A stretch of DNA of 43,875 bases from an uncultured Rhodospirillales bacterium (lineage in GTDB: Bacteria; Pseudomonadota; Alphaproteobacteria; Acetobacterales; Acetobacteraceae): the NCBI GenBank assembly GCA_903844135.1, contig CAIMSN010000109.1:1-43875 (forward strand), written 5' to 3'. The notes under the pieces are model-generated. The model ran no database searches, was not told where the DNA came from, and was given only the letters and a program-made list of their open reading frames with translations. Positions 29,892 to 36,217 of the stretch are shown piece after piece. Every line of letters begins with the position of its first letter. Position 1 is the stretch's first letter. Position numbers and translations under genes: made by a program.

Positions 29892-31421
29892 TCACGACGC
29901 CTTGCCGGACCCGGGCGCGCGCAGCCGGCCGATCACCTCGACCTGATCGAGCTCCAGCGCGCCCACGCCATGCAGGCTGATCCTGACCTTGCTGGCAGAC
30001 ATTTCCTGGGGCGCGATCCACTCGAACGGCGTGCCGTCGAGGCCGCCGAAGCCGACCGGCTCGGTCTGACGATGCACCACCTTGTAGAACGGCCCGCCAT
30101 GCCATAGCCCGATCGAGAACCGTCCCGGCCGCGCGCGGTCGCCGTCCATCCGGTTGTAGAGCCTGATCCGCTCGATCCAGGCCGGCCCCGGCAGATCCAC
30201 CTCCCACCAGCTATTCTCGCTGTGTCCGGTGCGCAACTGCGCGGACCCGGTCAGCACGCCATTGACCGGGCTGTCCCCCTCCGCGTCGGCGATGCCGTGG
30301 CAACTCTGCCGTGTCGGCCGATCGAGGGCGAGGTTGCCGGCCCGATCGTCGCTCGTCCGATCCGACCGTGCGCGTCGCAGACGATCGGAACGGTCCCTGA
30401 ACTCCAGCGCCCGCAGGATGTCCTCGGCGATTCCCACCGGATCGTGCGCGACGAACGCGTTCTGGAACCCGCCGCGCGATCCGGCCCAGGTGATCGAACC
30501 GTTCAGCGGACGCAGATACTGCGCCCTGGCGCCGTTCACCTGGTCGACCAGCCGGTAGTTGCCGTTCATCAGCTCGGTGTAGTTCAGGTTGATCGTGGTC
30601 TGTCCCGGCGCGAGGATGCTGGTGTGCAGCGCCGAGTTCGAGAACGACACGATCGTCGGGCGGTTGTGCCAGAGCGCCACCTGCTGCGGGAACGGCAGCG
30701 ATTCGGGATAGACGATCTCGACCCCGCCGCGCTCCAGCACCGACGAGATCGTCGCCTCGTTCTCCAGGCGCTGCACGCCGGCGGACAGGCGCTCCTTCGA
30801 CAGATAGACCGGCCGCGGATCCGGCGCGCCGATCCAGGGCGAAGCCAGACGACGTCCCAGCGCGTTGCAGCTACGCGCATAGGCGCGGTGCGCGAAGTTC
30901 TCCTCCTCGAAGCTGCTGGCGGGAACGATGATCTTCCCGATTTTGGTCGGCCGGTCGAGGCGCGTGAAGCGGTCGCGCGATAGTCCGATCGCAGCGAAGA
31001 TCGCCGCGCGCCAGTCCTGCGCGAACAGCAGGTCCAGATCCGAGCTGCTGTGCACCAGGATCTTGGCGGACGGATGCTCGAACCACAGCGTCGTCCAGTA
31101 GCGCGACAGGCTGGAGAGCAGGAAATGGCCGAAATGGTCGTGCAGGATGCCGCCATAGAGATAGAGCTCGTCCGGCGCGGTGTCCGGCACGGTGTCGAGG
31201 GAATACTCGGTGCCCAGGCGCTGCGGGGTCGCGAGCGGATTGGCGCCGAAGAAATGCGCCGACTGCACGATCAGCTTGCGTCCGTGATCGAACAGCCCCG
31301 CCCGCGAGACCGGGTCGCCGGTCGGAACGTAGATCACGTCGGAGAAGACGTGCGTGGCCGGCTCGGACTCGAGCAGCGTGCCGCCGCCGGCGAACTGTGT
31401 GCATCGGGTGAGCGCCGCCAT
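29892..31421 (-). CDS. GT61-type glycosyltransferase fused to F-type-lectin-like domain, copy 1
   Basis: 509 residues, ATG at 31421 with GGAGA upstream. Residues ~1-345 match the GT61 (DUF563) pattern: HDHFGHFLLSSLSRYW (94-109), PVYLSKERL, EIVYPESLPFPQQVALW and the SNSALHTSILAPG loop. Residues ~362-500 form an F5/8C or F-type-lectin-like jelly roll: NLALDRPTRQS, WWEVDL (405-410), NRMDGDRAR (423-431), then LELDQVEVIG. Of the fucose-binding signature, Arg424, Asp426 and Arg431 are present, but the expected His is Arg397. No signal peptide is seen, so it is probably cytoplasmic and peripheral. Sugar and acceptor are unknown. Confidence 0.82.
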   Translation of the reverse strand: MAALTRCTQFAGGGTLLESEPATHVFSDVIYVPTGDPVSRAGLFDHGRKLIVQSAHFFGANPLATPQRLGTEYSLDTVPDTAPDELYLYGGILHDHFGHFLLSSLSRYWTTLWFEHPSAKILVHSSSDLDLLFAQDWRAAIFAAIGLSRDRFTRLDRPTKIGKIIVPASSFEEENFAHRAYARSCNALGRRLASPWIGAPDPRPVYLSKERLSAGVQRLENEATISSVLERGGVEIVYPESLPFPQQVALWHNRPTIVSFSNSALHTSILAPGQTTINLNYTELMNGNYRLVDQVNGARAQYLRPLNGSITWAGSRGGFQNAFVAHDPVGIAEDILRALEFRDRSDRLRRARSDRTSDDRAGNLALDRPTRQSCHGIADAEGDSPVNGVLTGSAQLRTGHSENSWWEVDLPGPAWIERIRLYNRMDGDRARPGRFSIGLWHGGPFYKVVHRQTEPVGFGGLDGTPFEWIAPQEMSASKVRISLHGVGALELDQVEVIGRLRAPGSGKAS

Positions 31422-31457
31422 TGCTGTCTCCGCTGGTCTCGAACCTGCGCGGTCCGG

Positions 31458-33020
31458 TCAGGCCGTGTGTTGAGGCGCGCGCGCGGCCAGGGACCGGACG
31501 CCGCTCCGTTCCATCCGCCCCAGGATCTCGACCTGGTCGAGATGCAGATAGTTCCGGCCGCGCAGGCCGATGCGCACGTAGCGCGCCTCGATCGGCTCCC
31601 GGGCGATCCACTCGAACGGATGTCCGTCGAGACCGCCGAACCGGCAGGGTTCGGTCTGGTCGTGCAGGATCACGGCGGACGACTCGCCGTCGCGTCGCGC
31701 GCTGATGGTGAAGCGCGCGCAGCGCTCCTGGGCGATGTCGGCCCGATTGAACAGGCGGATCAGCGAGATGCGCGCGGTCGCCTGCAGATCGACCTCCCAC
31801 CACGGATCCTGTTCGTTGGCGGTGTGGAACTGGAACGCGCCGGTCAGGAAGCCGCTGGTCGCGCCGATGCTCCTGAATGGAACGTTGGGATGGTTGGAGC
31901 TCTGCGTCGCCGGCTTGTCGATCGCGACATTCACCAGCCCGCCGAGATGGTCTTCCTGCATCGTCGCGGCGTGTCGCGCGGCGTCGGCGCGGAGCTGCAC
32001 CTCGAGCGCGCGCAGCACGTCCGCTGCGATCGCCTCCGGATCGTGCGCCTCATGCGCGGTGACGAAGCCGCCGCGCGTGCCGTGGGTGGTGATCGACCCC
32101 GCCACCGGACGGAAATACCGTGCTGCGGTGCGGTTCGCCTTGTCGACCAGGACGTAGTTGGACATCAGGCTCTGGCCATAGCTGATCAGGAGGATGTTCC
32201 GTCCCGGCGCGAAGATGCTGGTATGCAGAGCCGAATTCGCGAACGATATGACGTTGGGACGATTGTACCAGAGCGCGATCTGCTCCTCGAACGACAAGGT
32301 CTCGGGATAGACGATCTCCACGCCGGCGCGCGCGAGCGCCCGCGAGACGGCGGACTCGTTCTCGAGCCTCTGCACCCCCTTGCTCAGTTTCTCCTTCGAG
32401 AGGAATACCGGTCTCGGGTCCGGCGGTCCGATCAGCGGCGCCGCGATCCGCCGGCCCAGCGCGTTGCAGAATCGCGCGTAGGCGGTATGGACGAAATTCT
32501 CCTCCTCGAAACTGGGCGCTGAGACCAGCAGGGTCCTGATCTTGGTCGTCCTGTCGAAGCTCACCAGCCGATCGCGCGCGATGCCCAGGCCGCGCATCAG
32601 GGTCGCGAACCAGTCGCGCTCGAACATCGCGTCGATCGCGAGCGGTGCATGCACCAGGATCTTCGCCGTGGGATGCGTCTCCCAGAGCCTGGACCAGAAT
32701 CTCGACAGGCTGGACAGCAGGAAATGTCCGAAATGCTCGTGCAGCCAGCCGCCATAGACATAGAGGTCGTCAGGCGCCCACGCGGACACGCTCTCCAGCC
32801 GATACGGCGTTCCCAGCGCATGCAGGCCGGCCAGCGGATCGGGCCCGCGGAAATACCAGGATTGGAACACCATTTTCTGGCCGTGATCGAAAATTCCGAC
32901 CGGGGACACCGGATCTCCGAACGGAACGAACATCGCATCATGCAGCGTGAGGATTGCTGGGTCCGCTTCGAGCAGGAGGGTCCCACCGGAGATGGTGTCG
33001 CATGTCAGGAGAGCCGCCAC
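31458..33020 (-). CDS. GT61-type glycosyltransferase fused to F-type-lectin-like domain, copy 2
   Basis: 520 residues from GTG at 33020. I set this start by alignment with the other copies, which all open with (M/V)-(A/P)-A-L followed by a Cys and GG-T-L; the frame stays open further upstream but without similarity. The GT61 half has EHFGHFLLSSLSRFW, PVFLSKEKL, EIVYPETLSFEEQIALW and ANSALHTSIFAPG. The lectin-like half (about 363-500) has NVAIDKPATQSS and FHTANEQDPWWEVDL. The F-type-lectin triad is complete: His399, then Arg426-X-Asp428-X4-Arg433. The spacing to copy 1 is 36 bp, so they form an operon with this copy first. The P450 gene diverges upstream. Confidence 0.82.
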   Translation of the reverse strand: MAALLTCDTISGGTLLLEADPAILTLHDAMFVPFGDPVSPVGIFDHGQKMVFQSWYFRGPDPLAGLHALGTPYRLESVSAWAPDDLYVYGGWLHEHFGHFLLSSLSRFWSRLWETHPTAKILVHAPLAIDAMFERDWFATLMRGLGIARDRLVSFDRTTKIRTLLVSAPSFEEENFVHTAYARFCNALGRRIAAPLIGPPDPRPVFLSKEKLSKGVQRLENESAVSRALARAGVEIVYPETLSFEEQIALWYNRPNVISFANSALHTSIFAPGRNILLISYGQSLMSNYVLVDKANRTAARYFRPVAGSITTHGTRGGFVTAHEAHDPEAIAADVLRALEVQLRADAARHAATMQEDHLGGLVNVAIDKPATQSSNHPNVPFRSIGATSGFLTGAFQFHTANEQDPWWEVDLQATARISLIRLFNRADIAQERCARFTISARRDGESSAVILHDQTEPCRFGGLDGHPFEWIAREPIEARYVRIGLRGRNYLHLDQVEILGRMERSGVRSLAARAPQHTA

Positions 33021-33153
33021 TGAAGAACCCCCGGTGTGCCCGTCGCGGCGGATTCTACCCCGGCCAGACCCAAGCGGCCAGCCATGGTGGCGATTCCTGG
33101 CCGGCCTGGACGTCGACACCCTTACAGAGCGGCGCCTCCGACGCCATGTGGCG

Positions 33154-34554
33154 ATGATGCTCGATGCCGCCCATGGTTCTCCGAACGCAGCGAAGCTGCC
33201 GCGCCCGAAGCTGCCGACCAGGCTCAGGAGCCAGGCGGAGGCGTTCCTGGTGCTGCGACGCAACCCGCTCGAGCTCTGGGGTCCGCCCGCCTATCGCGAA
33301 CTGGTCCTGCCCGGTGCGTTTCTCGGCCGGCAGCAGGTGCTGCTGAACGATCCCGTGGCAATCCGTCACGTCCTGCTCGGTAATCACGAGAACTACGTCC
33401 GCAACGAGGCTGCGCGCCGGGTGCTGCGGCCGGTGCTGGGGGACGGGCTGTTTTTGGCCGAGGGCGAGGCCTGGCGGCATCAGCGGCGGGTGATCGCGCC
33501 GGCGCTGGCGCCGCGGGTGATGCCGATCCTGTCGCGGCATATCGTCGCCGTCTCGGAACGGTTCGAGCGCCGGATCGTGGCGTCCGGCACCGGGCCGGTG
33601 CTGCTGATGGACCTGCTGCAGTTGCTGACGCTCGATATCGCCGGGCAGTCGATGTTCTCGCTGGAGATGGGCGCGTTCGGCGCCGAGCTACGCGGGCTGC
33701 TGTTCCGCTATGCCGGGGATTTCGCCAAGGTCGGGCTGCTGGACATGTTGATGCCGGCTGGCTGGACCACCCCGCTGGATCGCGGCCGCGCCCGCTTCCG
33801 CCAGGACTGGCTGGCGCTGATGGACCGGATCATCGCCGCCCGCGATGCGCAGGGCGAGCCGAAGGCGGGCGAACCGCGCGATTTGTTCGACCTGCTGCGC
33901 GCCGCCCGCGACCCGGAAACCGGGCAGGGGTTCGGTCACGCCCTGCTGCGTGACGAGATCTCCACCCTGATCCTGGCCGGACACGAGACCACCGCCGTCA
34001 CCCTGTTCTGGGCCTGCTACGCCGCCGCCCGGCTGCCGGAGCACCAGGCGGCGATCGCCGCCGAGGCGGACGGGCTCGATCTGTCCGAGGACGGCGCCGC
34101 GCAATCGGTGCAGAAGCTCGTCTTCACCCGCGCCTTCCTCGACGAGACGCTGCGCCTGTATCCGCCCGCCTACCTGCTGGTGCGCCAGGCCAGGCAGGCC
34201 GACCGGCTCGGCGCCCTCCCGATCGCGGCCGGCACCGTGGTCAGCATCTCGCCCTGGATCCTGCATCGTCACGAGGCGCACTGGGACCGTCCGGACGATT
34301 TCGACCCGGGTCGCTTCCTGCCGGGCGCCACGCCGCCGGACCGGATGGTCTACATGCCGTTCGGGGCCGGGCCGAGAATCTGCGTCGGCGCCCAGTTCGC
34401 CCTGACCGAGGCGACCCTGGTGCTGGCCCGGCTGCTGCGGCGCTTCCGGCTCACGCTGCCGCTCGGCGACGCGGTGCTGCCGCGCGGCCTGGTCACCACC
34501 CAGCCGGACCGGCCGGTGCGGTTCCGCCTGGCGCCGCGCGACCGCGCGCCCTGA
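33154..34554 (+). CDS. Cytochrome P450
   Basis: About 466 residues from ATG at 33154 (ATG 33157 and GTG 33148 are alternatives, none with a clear ribosome binding site). The I-helix motif is AGHETT (275-280), ExxR is Glu331-Arg334 in DETLRLYPP, and the heme-binding loop FGAGPRICVG carries Cys410. There is no membrane anchor, as usual for bacterial P450s. The substrate is unknown; this sequence type is often near fatty-acid or terpenoid hydroxylases, but I would not assign one. No ferredoxin or reductase gene is nearby. It lies between copies two and three of the lectin-glycosyltransferases, divergent from copy 2 and convergent with copy 3 (7 bp between stops). Confidence 0.93.
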   Translation: MMLDAAHGSPNAAKLPRPKLPTRLRSQAEAFLVLRRNPLELWGPPAYRELVLPGAFLGRQQVLLNDPVAIRHVLLGNHENYVRNEAARRVLRPVLGDGLFLAEGEAWRHQRRVIAPALAPRVMPILSRHIVAVSERFERRIVASGTGPVLLMDLLQLLTLDIAGQSMFSLEMGAFGAELRGLLFRYAGDFAKVGLLDMLMPAGWTTPLDRGRARFRQDWLALMDRIIAARDAQGEPKAGEPRDLFDLLRAARDPETGQGFGHALLRDEISTLILAGHETTAVTLFWACYAAARLPEHQAAIAAEADGLDLSEDGAAQSVQKLVFTRAFLDETLRLYPPAYLLVRQARQADRLGALPIAAGTVVSISPWILHRHEAHWDRPDDFDPGRFLPGATPPDRMVYMPFGAGPRICVGAQFALTEATLVLARLLRRFRLTLPLGDAVLPRGLVTTQPDRPVRFRLAPRDRAP

Positions 34555-34561
34555 GTCTCGC

Positions 34562-36217
34562 TCAGCCGGCCAGCGCTCGCCCGAGCAGTCTGGCGAACAA
34601 AGACGGCGCCGGGCGCTGCTCCGGCGCGGCCGGCGGCGGCGGGGCGGCAGTAGGCGGGGCGGCCTGCACGGGATGGCCGATCACCTCCACCTGATCCAGA
34701 TGGAGATAGTCCCGCCCGAGCAGGGTGATGCGCAGGATGCGTCCCTCGACCGGCTGCGGCGCGATCCAGACGAACGGCGTTCCGTCGAGCCCGCCGAACA
34801 GCAGCGCCTCGGTCTGGTGGTGCAGCGTGATCCAGTCCGTCGCCTCGCCGCGCAGGTCGATCCTGAACCGGCCGCAGCGCTCCTGGGAATTGTCCAGCCG
34901 GTTGAACAGCCGGATCGCCGCGATCCGCATCGTCCGCGCGAGATCGACCTCCCACCAGGGATCCTGTTCGTTCTCGGTATGGAACTGGTATGTGCCGGTC
35001 AGGGTGCCGCTGGTGGCATCGGGACTGTCCTGCCTGACCCAGGGATGATGCGAGCTCTGCCGGCTCGGCTTGTCGATCGCCACGTTCAGCAGGCGATCCT
35101 CAGGGTCCGGCAGCCTGAGGCTGTCCGGGGGATAGGTCCAGTAGCCGCGGCGCCGGTTCAGCGCCTCGCCGGCGCGGCTGGCCGCGGCACGCTGGCGGAA
35201 ATCCAACGCCCGCAGCAGATGATCGGCGATCGCCGCCGGATCGCGCGCACGGTGCACCACGTTGAAACCGTCGCGCGGGCCCAGCGTCTCCATCGTGCCG
35301 TCGGGGGGATGGAGATAGAGCGCGTTGTTGCGGTTGGCGCGATCGACCAGCGCATAGTTGGACATCACCCCGGGTCCGTAGCTGACCACGACCGGGCTGC
35401 ACGCCGGGGCGAAGATGCTGGTGTGAACGGCGGAACTGACGAACGAGACGATGAACGGCCGTGCATACCAGAGCGCCACCTGCTCCTGCAGCGACAGGGT
35501 TTCCGGACAAATGATCTCCACGCCGTGACGTTCGAGCGCGTCGGCGATCGCGTCCTCGTTGTCGAGCTTCTGCACCCCGCTCCGCAAGTGTCGCTTCGAC
35601 AGGAACACCGGCGTGTTGTTGCGCAGCGCCCCCAGATCGCCGGCCAGCGTGCGGCCGAGCGCGTTGCAGGATGTCGCATAGGCGCGGTGGACGAAGCTCT
35701 CCTCCTCGAACGCCGGCGCCGGCAGCAGGAGCCGGCGCAGCCTGACCGGTCCGTCGAACCGCACGAACCGCTCCTTCGCCAGACCGAGCCCGCCCATCAT
35801 CGCGGCGAACCAGGGACGCGCGAACCACCACTCCATGTCCCTGTCCGAGTGGTACAGGATTTTCAGCGACGGATTGTCCGCCGGAAGCGTGCTCCAGTAG
35901 CGGGACAGGCTGGAGAGCAGGAAATGGCCGAAATGATCGTGCAGCCAGCCGCCATAGATGTAGCAATCGTCCGGCGCCGTCTCCACCATGGATGGCGTGT
36001 AGGGCGTGCTGAGATCCCGCCCGGTGGCCAGCGAGCGTGCGCCGCGAAAATACCAGGACTGCAGCACGAGCTTTTGCCCGTGATCGAATATTCCGGGTTG
36101 CGATCCGGCATGATGCAGCGGGACATAGATCACGTCGTGCAAGGTGAGGATCGCCGGCGGCGACTCCACGAGGGTCGTTCCGCCGACGAAATCCTTGCAT
36201 TTCAGGAGCGCAGGCAC
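34562..36217 (-). CDS. GT61-type glycosyltransferase fused to F-type-lectin-like domain, copy 3
   Basis: 551 residues from GTG at 36217, with GGAGG seven bases upstream and an N-terminus (PALLKCKDFVGGTTLVES) that lines up with the other copies. The GT61 half has HDHFGHFLLSSLSRYW (94-109), PVFLSKRHL, EIICPETLSLQEQVALW and SSAVHTSIFAP. The lectin-like half (377-514) has NVAIDKPSRQSS and FHTENEQDPWWEVDL. The fucose-binding triad is complete: His413, Arg440, Asp442 and Arg447. A Pro/Ala-rich linker and a short basic tail (LFARLLGRALAG) are unique to this copy. It may be transcribed alone: the micro-gene terminator lies 88 bp upstream of its start. Confidence 0.82.
   Translation of the reverse strand: MPALLKCKDFVGGTTLVESPPAILTLHDVIYVPLHHAGSQPGIFDHGQKLVLQSWYFRGARSLATGRDLSTPYTPSMVETAPDDCYIYGGWLHDHFGHFLLSSLSRYWSTLPADNPSLKILYHSDRDMEWWFARPWFAAMMGGLGLAKERFVRFDGPVRLRRLLLPAPAFEEESFVHRAYATSCNALGRTLAGDLGALRNNTPVFLSKRHLRSGVQKLDNEDAIADALERHGVEIICPETLSLQEQVALWYARPFIVSFVSSAVHTSIFAPACSPVVVSYGPGVMSNYALVDRANRNNALYLHPPDGTMETLGPRDGFNVVHRARDPAAIADHLLRALDFRQRAAASRAGEALNRRRGYWTYPPDSLRLPDPEDRLLNVAIDKPSRQSSHHPWVRQDSPDATSGTLTGTYQFHTENEQDPWWEVDLARTMRIAAIRLFNRLDNSQERCGRFRIDLRGEATDWITLHHQTEALLFGGLDGTPFVWIAPQPVEGRILRITLLGRDYLHLDQVEVIGHPVQAAPPTAAPPPPAAPEQRPAPSLFARLLGRALAG

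Follow-up and report, generated by a model that had tools for sequence, protein, structure and literature searches.

GT61-family proteins with C-terminal F-type lectin domains in an uncultured Acetobacteraceae bacterium

Polypeptide GalNAc-transferases combine a catalytic domain, a flexible linker and a C-terminal lectin domain, which is a β-trefoil. This lectin domain sets the preferences of the enzymes for prior glycosylation (PMC5716993). POMGNT2, a eukaryotic GT61 enzyme of solved structure, joins the GT61 fold to a C-terminal β-sandwich domain that aids acceptor recognition, as described in PMC13411425. In prokaryotes, F-type lectin domains (FTLDs) occur on glycoenzymes, lipases and methyltransferases, according to Bishnoi et al. 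as recounted in PMC5712786. The parts of the proteins described here are known, and the pairing of a GT61 half with an FTLD is little studied. An earlier note on this DNA had held that no enzyme with the pairing was described; this stands insofar as no title or abstract opening among the literature matches listed names a GT61-FTLD protein, but it is weakened by the FTLD-bearing glycoenzymes that the review reports, and Bishnoi et al. (2015) may list one. The lectin tail suggests that the enzyme may sense the sugar chain under construction.

The window, that is, the whole 43,875-nucleotide stretch analysed (contig CAIMSN010000109.1), encodes three such proteins, and all three reading frames were confirmed in it:

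29892..31421, minus strand: copy 1, GT61-FTLD protein of 509 residues, with Arg in place of the triad His
29922..30341, minus strand: F-type lectin domain of copy 1
30390..31421, minus strand: GT61 catalytic half of copy 1 (boundary approximate)
31458..33020, minus strand: copy 2, GT61-FTLD protein of 520 residues, GTG start inferred, with His399, Arg426, Asp428 and Arg433
31512..31937, minus strand: F-type lectin domain of copy 2
31986..33020, minus strand: GT61 catalytic half of copy 2 (boundary approximate; POMGNT2 match, model residues 21-346)
34562..36217, minus strand: copy 3, GT61-FTLD protein of 551 residues, GTG start inferred, with His413, Arg440, Asp442 and Arg447
34670..35092, minus strand: F-type lectin domain of copy 3 (modelled alone, pLDDT 94.8)
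35186..36217, minus strand: GT61 catalytic half of copy 3 (boundary approximate)

For copies 2 and 3, the GTG starts (33020 and 36217, respectively) were placed by the start points of relatives; both frames are open further upstream, giving 601 and 624 residues from TTG. Each protein comprises a GT61 half followed by a lectin-like half, as had been proposed, and the motifs N-x-A-x-x-(K/R)-P-x-x-QS, WWEVDL and DQVE(V/I) are present in all three copies. The Pfam family Glyco_transf_61 matches all three above its cut-off (E of 6e-13 to 7e-15), which assigns them to the GT61 family with glycosyl transfer as the predicted activity; an NCBIfam scan of the three proteins returned no match. The GT half of the copy 2 model matches POMGNT2 (Z 16.2 and r.m.s.d. 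4.3 over 292 residues). The relative placement of the halves is uncertain in the full-length model, which has a pTM of 0.70 and a linker pLDDT of ~45.

In copies 2 and 3 the C-terminal half passes the cut-offs of Pfam F5_F8_type_C and F5_F8_type_C_2, whereas in copy 1 both matches fall short (22.6 and 26.2 bits versus 28.2 and 27.8); F5_F8_type_C fits FTLDs at superfamily level. A profile of ten full-length proteins places six distinct F-type lectin sequences at the top (from FBP32, 7.8e-26, to eel, 6.4e-14), ahead of the best discoidin (1.1e-7), and a 50-row FTLD profile retrieves F-type lectins (1.9e-33 to 8.2e-17) before neuropilin (1.6e-12). For the model of the copy 3 FTLD, ten F-type lectin entries lead (Z 17.8-19.5), followed by chitosan-binding modules (Z 17.3). 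The full-length copy 2 model, which matches a chitosan-binding module as well as it does the F-type lectins (Z 16.4), would on its own leave a discoidin/CBM32-type and an F-type assignment level; filing as discoidin or CBM32 was rejected, F-type lectins ranking higher in both profiles and in the copy 3 FTLD model. The profile search, set beforehand in the earlier note as its refuting test, leaves the C-terminal half inside the galactose-binding-like superfamily, and by profile and predicted fold the domain is an F-type lectin, not merely similar to one. Copy 1 is assigned to the F-type lectins by homology, not by a working pocket.

Copies 2 and 3 have the full fucose signature, exactly as had been claimed, with 26 residues between the His and the first Arg. 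This spacing equals that of eel lectin His52 and Arg79 quoted in PMC5712786; the motif as given in that review is HX24RXDX4(R/K). Copy 1 retains Arg-X-Asp-X4-Arg, and its signature is incomplete. As a stand-alone statistical argument the signature was dropped: the bare pattern H-X26-R-X-D-X4-[RK] occurs four times, twice in the FTLDs, in those stop-to-stop frames of the window that have 80 or more codons, and 200 shuffles give 3.4 on average, so that the evidence lies in homology and aligned position and not in the pattern alone. Across 43 aligned FTLDs, one of them a fragment row (L079), the His is kept in 38, the first Arg in 33 (Thr replaces it in eight), the Asp in 37 and the second Arg in 40. 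Seven of the 11 GT61-FTLD proteins have the complete signature and four are without it; the 50-row FTLD alignment yields 23 complete signatures, which may be an under- or overcount owing to gaps in the last-Arg column.

We consider it moderately probable that these proteins are cytoplasmic GT61 enzymes of surface-glycan synthesis, whose lectin domain recognises a sugar on the acceptor or on the growing glycan and thereby holds or selects the chain. By family and predicted fold, each consists of a GT-B-type catalytic half, a short variable linker and a C-terminal F-type lectin domain. We infer that the last binds sugar, most likely one belonging to the acceptor or nascent form of the putative polysaccharide; the sugar probably has an axial hydroxyl, and L-fucose made by the cell itself is an improbable candidate. 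The bound chain would then be held or selected for the catalytic half, as in the GalNAc-transferases, and the FnIII domain that handles the acceptor peptide in POMGNT2 would be a parallel.

Alternatively, the FTLD might serve enzyme stability or dimerisation, or the binding of protein or lipid, as a non-lectin module whose pocket is a relic; we regard this as unlikely. The 30 most conserved columns of the FTLD alignment include the His, the Asp and the second Arg but not the first Arg (kept in 33 of 43), and a group of nearby GT61 proteins fills the same slot with a different, lectin-like fold, a β-trefoil-like module seen by profile only; both observations speak for sugar binding over a non-lectin role. 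Such a role would nevertheless agree with the loss of the His in copy 1, with the absence from the three copies of the eel cation motif (two small hydrophobics, D-G, N/D/S), with Gln at the eel Glu147 ligand position in 39 of 50 FTLD rows, and with the degenerate F5/8C-like tail of a GT61 protein found at class level (L119). Phospholipid is bound by fold relatives such as factor V C2, and discoidin-type domains that are not fucose lectins partly retain the His and Arg (PMC5712786). According to the same review, metal-ligand replacements are common in F-type lectins, and FBP32 binds cells without calcium.

The source genome has 11 GT61 genes, six of them with an FTLD, and the fusion is absent from the three congeners searched. 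FTLDs are found repeatedly, mostly as C-terminal modules, on GT61, GT2-type and methyltransferase enzymes of Acetobacteraceae and of some of their relatives. Among 51 FTLDs, which include the near-copies L105/L124, L066/L067 and L038/L069, 50 have at least 150 residues ahead of them in frame, 45 have at most 60 behind, and 30 follow a glycosyltransferase or methyltransferase domain above the Pfam cut-off (manual tally; the Pfam-scanned set excludes L113). In a search of 385 class-level and 398 phylum-level genomes (E 1e-20), rows covering both halves came from the window genome alone; at most three candidates were scored per genome and the window genome itself showed just three of its six copies, so that this is a weak negative on wider distribution.

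Some carriers join several catalytic domains to one FTLD, in the order GT61-GT2-FTLD (L071 and L076) or with three GT2-type domains (L066). Such an arrangement would suit a domain that holds the product and not the acceptor, in the service of processivity, regulation of chain length or feedback from the completed glycan. Its anatomy would be that of acceptor reading, and the observations made here fit the two alike; eukaryotic GT61 enzymes add single sugars. We judge product holding improbable.

The GT halves of the 11 GT61-FTLD proteins reject a single clade (p-AU 0.0005) and so a single fusion event, whereas the lectin halves are compatible with one (p-AU 0.318). The FTLDs of L071 and L076 group with those of GT2-type proteins in the lectin-half tree, where L067 and L068_1792 are labelled GT2 though their own Pfam matches are below cut-off, and L102 is labelled other, its GT2-type match being 0.3 bits short. 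Tentatively, and at less than even confidence, the acceptor reading can be widened to a family of intracellular lectin-guided glycan writers in Acetobacteraceae, taking in GT61, GT2-type and methyltransferase enzymes. Their C-terminal readers, F-type or, in nearby GT61 proteins, β-trefoil, would be interchangeable and would recognise a non-fucose sugar of the cell's own nascent polysaccharide, as an independent counterpart of the GalNAc-transferases.

Within the window, the copies have as neighbours an NADH dehydrogenase, a P450 and a gyrase-B-type gene, and other copies have mixed neighbours; no glycan gene cluster common to the copies was seen in a partial look at neighbours. A hexapeptide-transferase gene adjoins two of the three copies that the source genome carries outside the window. 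In genome G071, copy L044 is adjoined by a second GT61 and a GT92-type gene lies two genes from copy L045. Phages gave no FTLD match, and one plasmid record matched, in the GT half only. Locus L055, from Commensalibacter papalotli, lies in a record titled plasmid pA.

L-fucose as the ligand, implied by the fucose signature, is weakened by the sugar supply. Self-made L-fucose is an unlikely ligand because, in 20 carrier or related genomes, no GDP-L-fucose synthase match reaches the cut-off (the best has 106 bits versus 500) and fucose pyrophosphorylase has no match. Weaker synthase matches occur in all 20 genomes and likewise in 14 of 14 control genomes; in the control for the pyrophosphorylase, five of 14 known genomes match, one over cut-off. 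Genes of gmd type are present in six of six genomes, one over the 415-bit cut-off and the rest at 389 to 412, and the GDP-L-fucose synthase model gives 29 bits for the one gmd neighbour scanned, in G071. An rmlD gene is over cut-off in all 20 genomes, and L-rhamnose supply singles out no ligand.

At the starts used, a hydrophobic N-terminal stretch is absent from ten of ten proteins, leaving no signal-like N-terminus, and the GT61-FTLD proteins look cytosolic from their sequences. Together with the use of cytosolic nucleotide sugars by the enzyme families fused to the FTLD, this makes an extracellular role very improbable, such as that of an adhesin for fucosylated plant or insect glycans; the missing L-fucose supply and the presence of the insect-gut bacterium Commensalibacter papalotli among the carriers would fit such a role. 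Known bacterial FTLDs target host glycans (PMC5712786), which would fit it too.

The acceptor-reading enzymes proposed here stand beside several known systems. They share profile and predicted fold with the F-type lectins (eel agglutinin, 1k12; FBP32, 3cqo; the fucose-binding pneumococcal modules, 2j1r and 2j22; the lectin domain of lectinolysin, 3le0), and copies 2 and 3 share His-X26-Arg-X-Asp-X4-Arg with them; unlike them, the copies are fused to a cytosolic-looking GT61 half, are without the eel cation motif and come from carriers that, with their relatives, showed no L-fucose route in 20 genomes. The FTLD serves as an enzyme module, as in the work of Bishnoi et al.; the passages on it in PMC5712786 name neither the combination with GT61 nor the presence of several such genes in a single genome. 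If the proposal is true, F-type lectins, mostly studied in cell-surface recognition, would enter intracellular glycan synthesis, and L-fucose would probably not be their ligand there. POMGNT2 has the same catalytic fold, but its C-terminal domain is FnIII and not a lectin, and the enzyme is luminal with a protein acceptor. The soluble-looking proteins of ~520 residues could be expressed whole or as halves, and with six natural variants in one genome, one of them without the triad His, and another lectin-like fold in the same slot of nearby enzymes, the effect of the lectin module on the transferase is directly testable. To the GalNAc-transferases the likeness is one of anatomy only, the catalytic family and the lectin fold being different, and the β-trefoil appears here, by profile alone, in the nearby GT61 proteins. 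If the proposal holds, bacteria would share the logic of the mucin-type GalNAc-transferases, that of a writer coupled to a reader of prior sugars.

Three genes of the window, all on the minus strand, encode a GT61 glycosyltransferase half followed by a C-terminal F-type lectin domain (FTLD), and a cytochrome P450 gene lies between the second and the third. Because the open frame of the P450 gene overlaps copy 2 at its start, the gene probably begins further inside that frame.

GT61-FTLD genes of the window and the interposed gene
29892-31421, minus strand: copy 1, GT61-FTLD gene
31458-33020, minus strand: copy 2, GT61-FTLD gene (GTG start inferred)
32947-34554, plus strand: cytochrome P450 gene
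34562-36217, minus strand: copy 3, GT61-FTLD gene (GTG start inferred)

The FTLD assignment rests on sequence profiles and predicted structure. Single-sequence searches of the PDB placed F-type lectins at the top for all three copies. For copy 1, the four sequences matched up to an E-value of 1 were without exception F-type lectins (1.7e-7 to 9e-4); copy 2 matched six F-type lectins (best 1.7e-12) and one unrelated entry (0.51); and copy 3 matched six F-type lectins (1.3e-12 to 5e-5), followed by neuropilin (from 0.022) and chromate reductase (0.13). The gap was wider with a profile of the full proteins (7.8e-26 to 6.4e-14, next match 1.1e-7) and with a 50-row FTLD profile (1.9e-33 to 8.2e-17, next match 1.6e-12). 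The conserved hT and N-R of the lectins share columns with the FTLD profile in five alignments, which do not include the eel lectin. The copy 3 FTLD model, built from 50 natural rows, has a pLDDT of 94.8; its first 11 Foldseek chains are F-type lectins, and VIA-align ranks ten F-type lectin entries (Z 17.8-19.5) ahead of chitosan-binding modules (Z 17.3 to 16.9), with which the eel lectin (Z 17.8) ties under VIA-align's own rule. For the full-length copy 2 model, F-type lectins are again on top in Foldseek, and a chitosan-binding module is second in VIA-align (Z 16.4; F-type lectins 16.1 to 18.0). The F-type-lectin-like character proposed in the earlier note is thus borne out by the profile ranks and the FTLD model. 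Its GT61 assignment also holds: Pfam finds the family in all three copies, and the copy 2 model (pLDDT 82, pTM 0.70) resembles POMGNT2, a eukaryotic GT61 enzyme, across 292 residues (Z 16.2).

Among 11 GT61-FTLD proteins, the gap between the two profile models is 3 to 32 residues. None of 10 proteins has a hydrophobic N-terminus at the starts used; the protein of locus L009 has an inner hydrophobic stretch, inside its GT half.

The window genome holds 11 GT61 matches and seven FTLDs, six of which share a frame with GT61. No fusion exists in three congeneric genomes, where FTLDs (1-3 per genome) and GT61 matches (4-5 per genome) never occur on one contig. Among the matches listed for 200 genomes of the family, three genomes have rows that span both halves (six in the window genome, three in G071, one in G100), and at least 46 have rows lying wholly within the FTLD (query start at 335 or beyond). 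Named carriers are Acetobacteraceae bacterium KSS12 and Commensalibacter papalotli, whose gene sits on a contig titled plasmid pA (L055). FTLDs also occur beyond Acetobacteraceae loci, for example in a locus titled Methylococcaceae (L081) and in one from a beta-proteobacterium (L075). Hexapeptide-repeat transferase genes (L009:5297-6358 and L010:7802-8896) adjoin two of the three window-genome copies outside the window, and L019 has GT61 and a hexapeptide transferase within one frame. Two further frames add one or two GT2-type domains.

Frames combining GT61, GT2-type domain(s) and FTLD
L071:4737-7280, MAG locus: one frame, 848 aa
L076:3975-7280, MAG locus: one frame, 1102 aa

The 51 FTLDs collected come from loci fetched with GT61-FTLD queries, near-copies included, and are no unbiased census. 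Above the Pfam cut-off, 30 have a partner: 11 lie behind GT61, two behind GT61-GT2, 15 behind or beside Glyco_tranf_2_4 and two behind a methyltransferase. Of the remaining 21, all but L113, which was outside the Pfam scan, show none of these families or only sub-threshold matches (FkbM, DUF707, GT11, GT2-type, esterase). At least 150 residues precede the FTLD in 50 of 51, and at most 60 follow it in 45.

A single clade for the 11 FTLDs of GT61 proteins is not rejected on a tree of 50 such domains (p-AU 0.318), where they require three label changes; both GT61-GT2 domains fall inside a starred group of GT2-type FTLDs. For the GT61 halves, a tree with 52 members puts the 11 fused ones in two places and needs five changes, three of them forced by starred branches; a single clade was rejected (lnL 83 lower, p-AU 0.0005). 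From these trees, both of which drew a long-branch warning from the tree tool, the FTLD module probably underwent repeated gain, loss or exchange.

Six GT61s (L021, L022, L023, L027, L030 and L033) join four fused ones, including the window copies, at an unstarred fork (94/82), and carry in place of the FTLD a C-terminal 129-215 aa with no Pfam family. Their profile, for which a narrower row set including L019 was also used, matches a GH18-attached beta-trefoil module (7zoh; 2.5e-10) and then designed trefoils. By profile only, a beta-trefoil-like module would occupy the slot of the window FTLD, a reading that is weaker for three of the six because their identity to the first row is only 13-23%. 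A GT61 gene from another family of the class (L119:1021-2799) ends in a degenerate tail of F5/8C-like type that stays below cut-off at 17.8 bits and is possibly an intermediate or a relic.

The sequence details of the earlier note were right; copy 1 has Arg at the position held by His in copies 2 and 3. The bare signature, His-X26-Arg-X-Asp-X4-(Arg/Lys), is too common to count by itself: it matches four times in window frames, and the shuffles averaged 3.4. The available text of PMC5712786 prints HX24RXDX4(R/K), yet its own numbering (His52, Arg79) leaves 26 residues between. In a set of 43 FTLDs that includes one fragment, 38 retain the His, and the other positions are conserved as follows: the first Arg in 33 (Thr in eight), Asp in 37 and the second Arg in 40; the full signature is present in 7 of 11 GT61-FTLD proteins and neither GT61-GT2 protein. 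In the eel lectin, the signature residues bind the axial 4-OH, and 3-O-methyl-D-galactose and 3-O-methyl-D-fucose are also accepted (PMC5712786, in part). The three copies lack its cation motif and, unlike it, have no Cys at the counterparts of its positions 50, 82, 83 and 146 (mapped by hand); where it has Glu147, 39 of 50 FTLD rows carry Gln. No GDP-L-fucose synthase exceeded the 500-bit cut-off in 20 genomes (best 106, weaker matches in all), which 4 of 14 control genomes exceed; fucose pyrophosphorylase had no match in the 20, and rmlD was above cut-off in every one. Because the lectin domain looks cytosolic and these bacteria have no visible L-fucose route, we infer that the FTLD should read another sugar.

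The earlier note knew of no described enzyme with this pairing. Prokaryotic FTLDs joined to glycoenzymes, lipases and methyltransferases are already described in the accessible part of PMC5712786. The listed titles and abstract openings of related literature name neither the GT61 pairing and its multiplication in one genome nor the repeated gain or loss and the trefoil-like alternative. As to function, a structural or non-sugar role of the FTLD is the main rival and seems rather unlikely. By analogy, we lean slightly towards lectin-guided transfer, in which the FTLD would guide sugar transfer by the GT61 half on a nascent glycan. GalNAc-transferases offer an analogue for such guidance (PMC5716993, in its available portion). 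POMGNT2 is a second, its C-terminal domain aiding acceptor recognition (PMC13411425, as far as accessible), although that domain is FnIII whereas that of the window copies is an FTLD.
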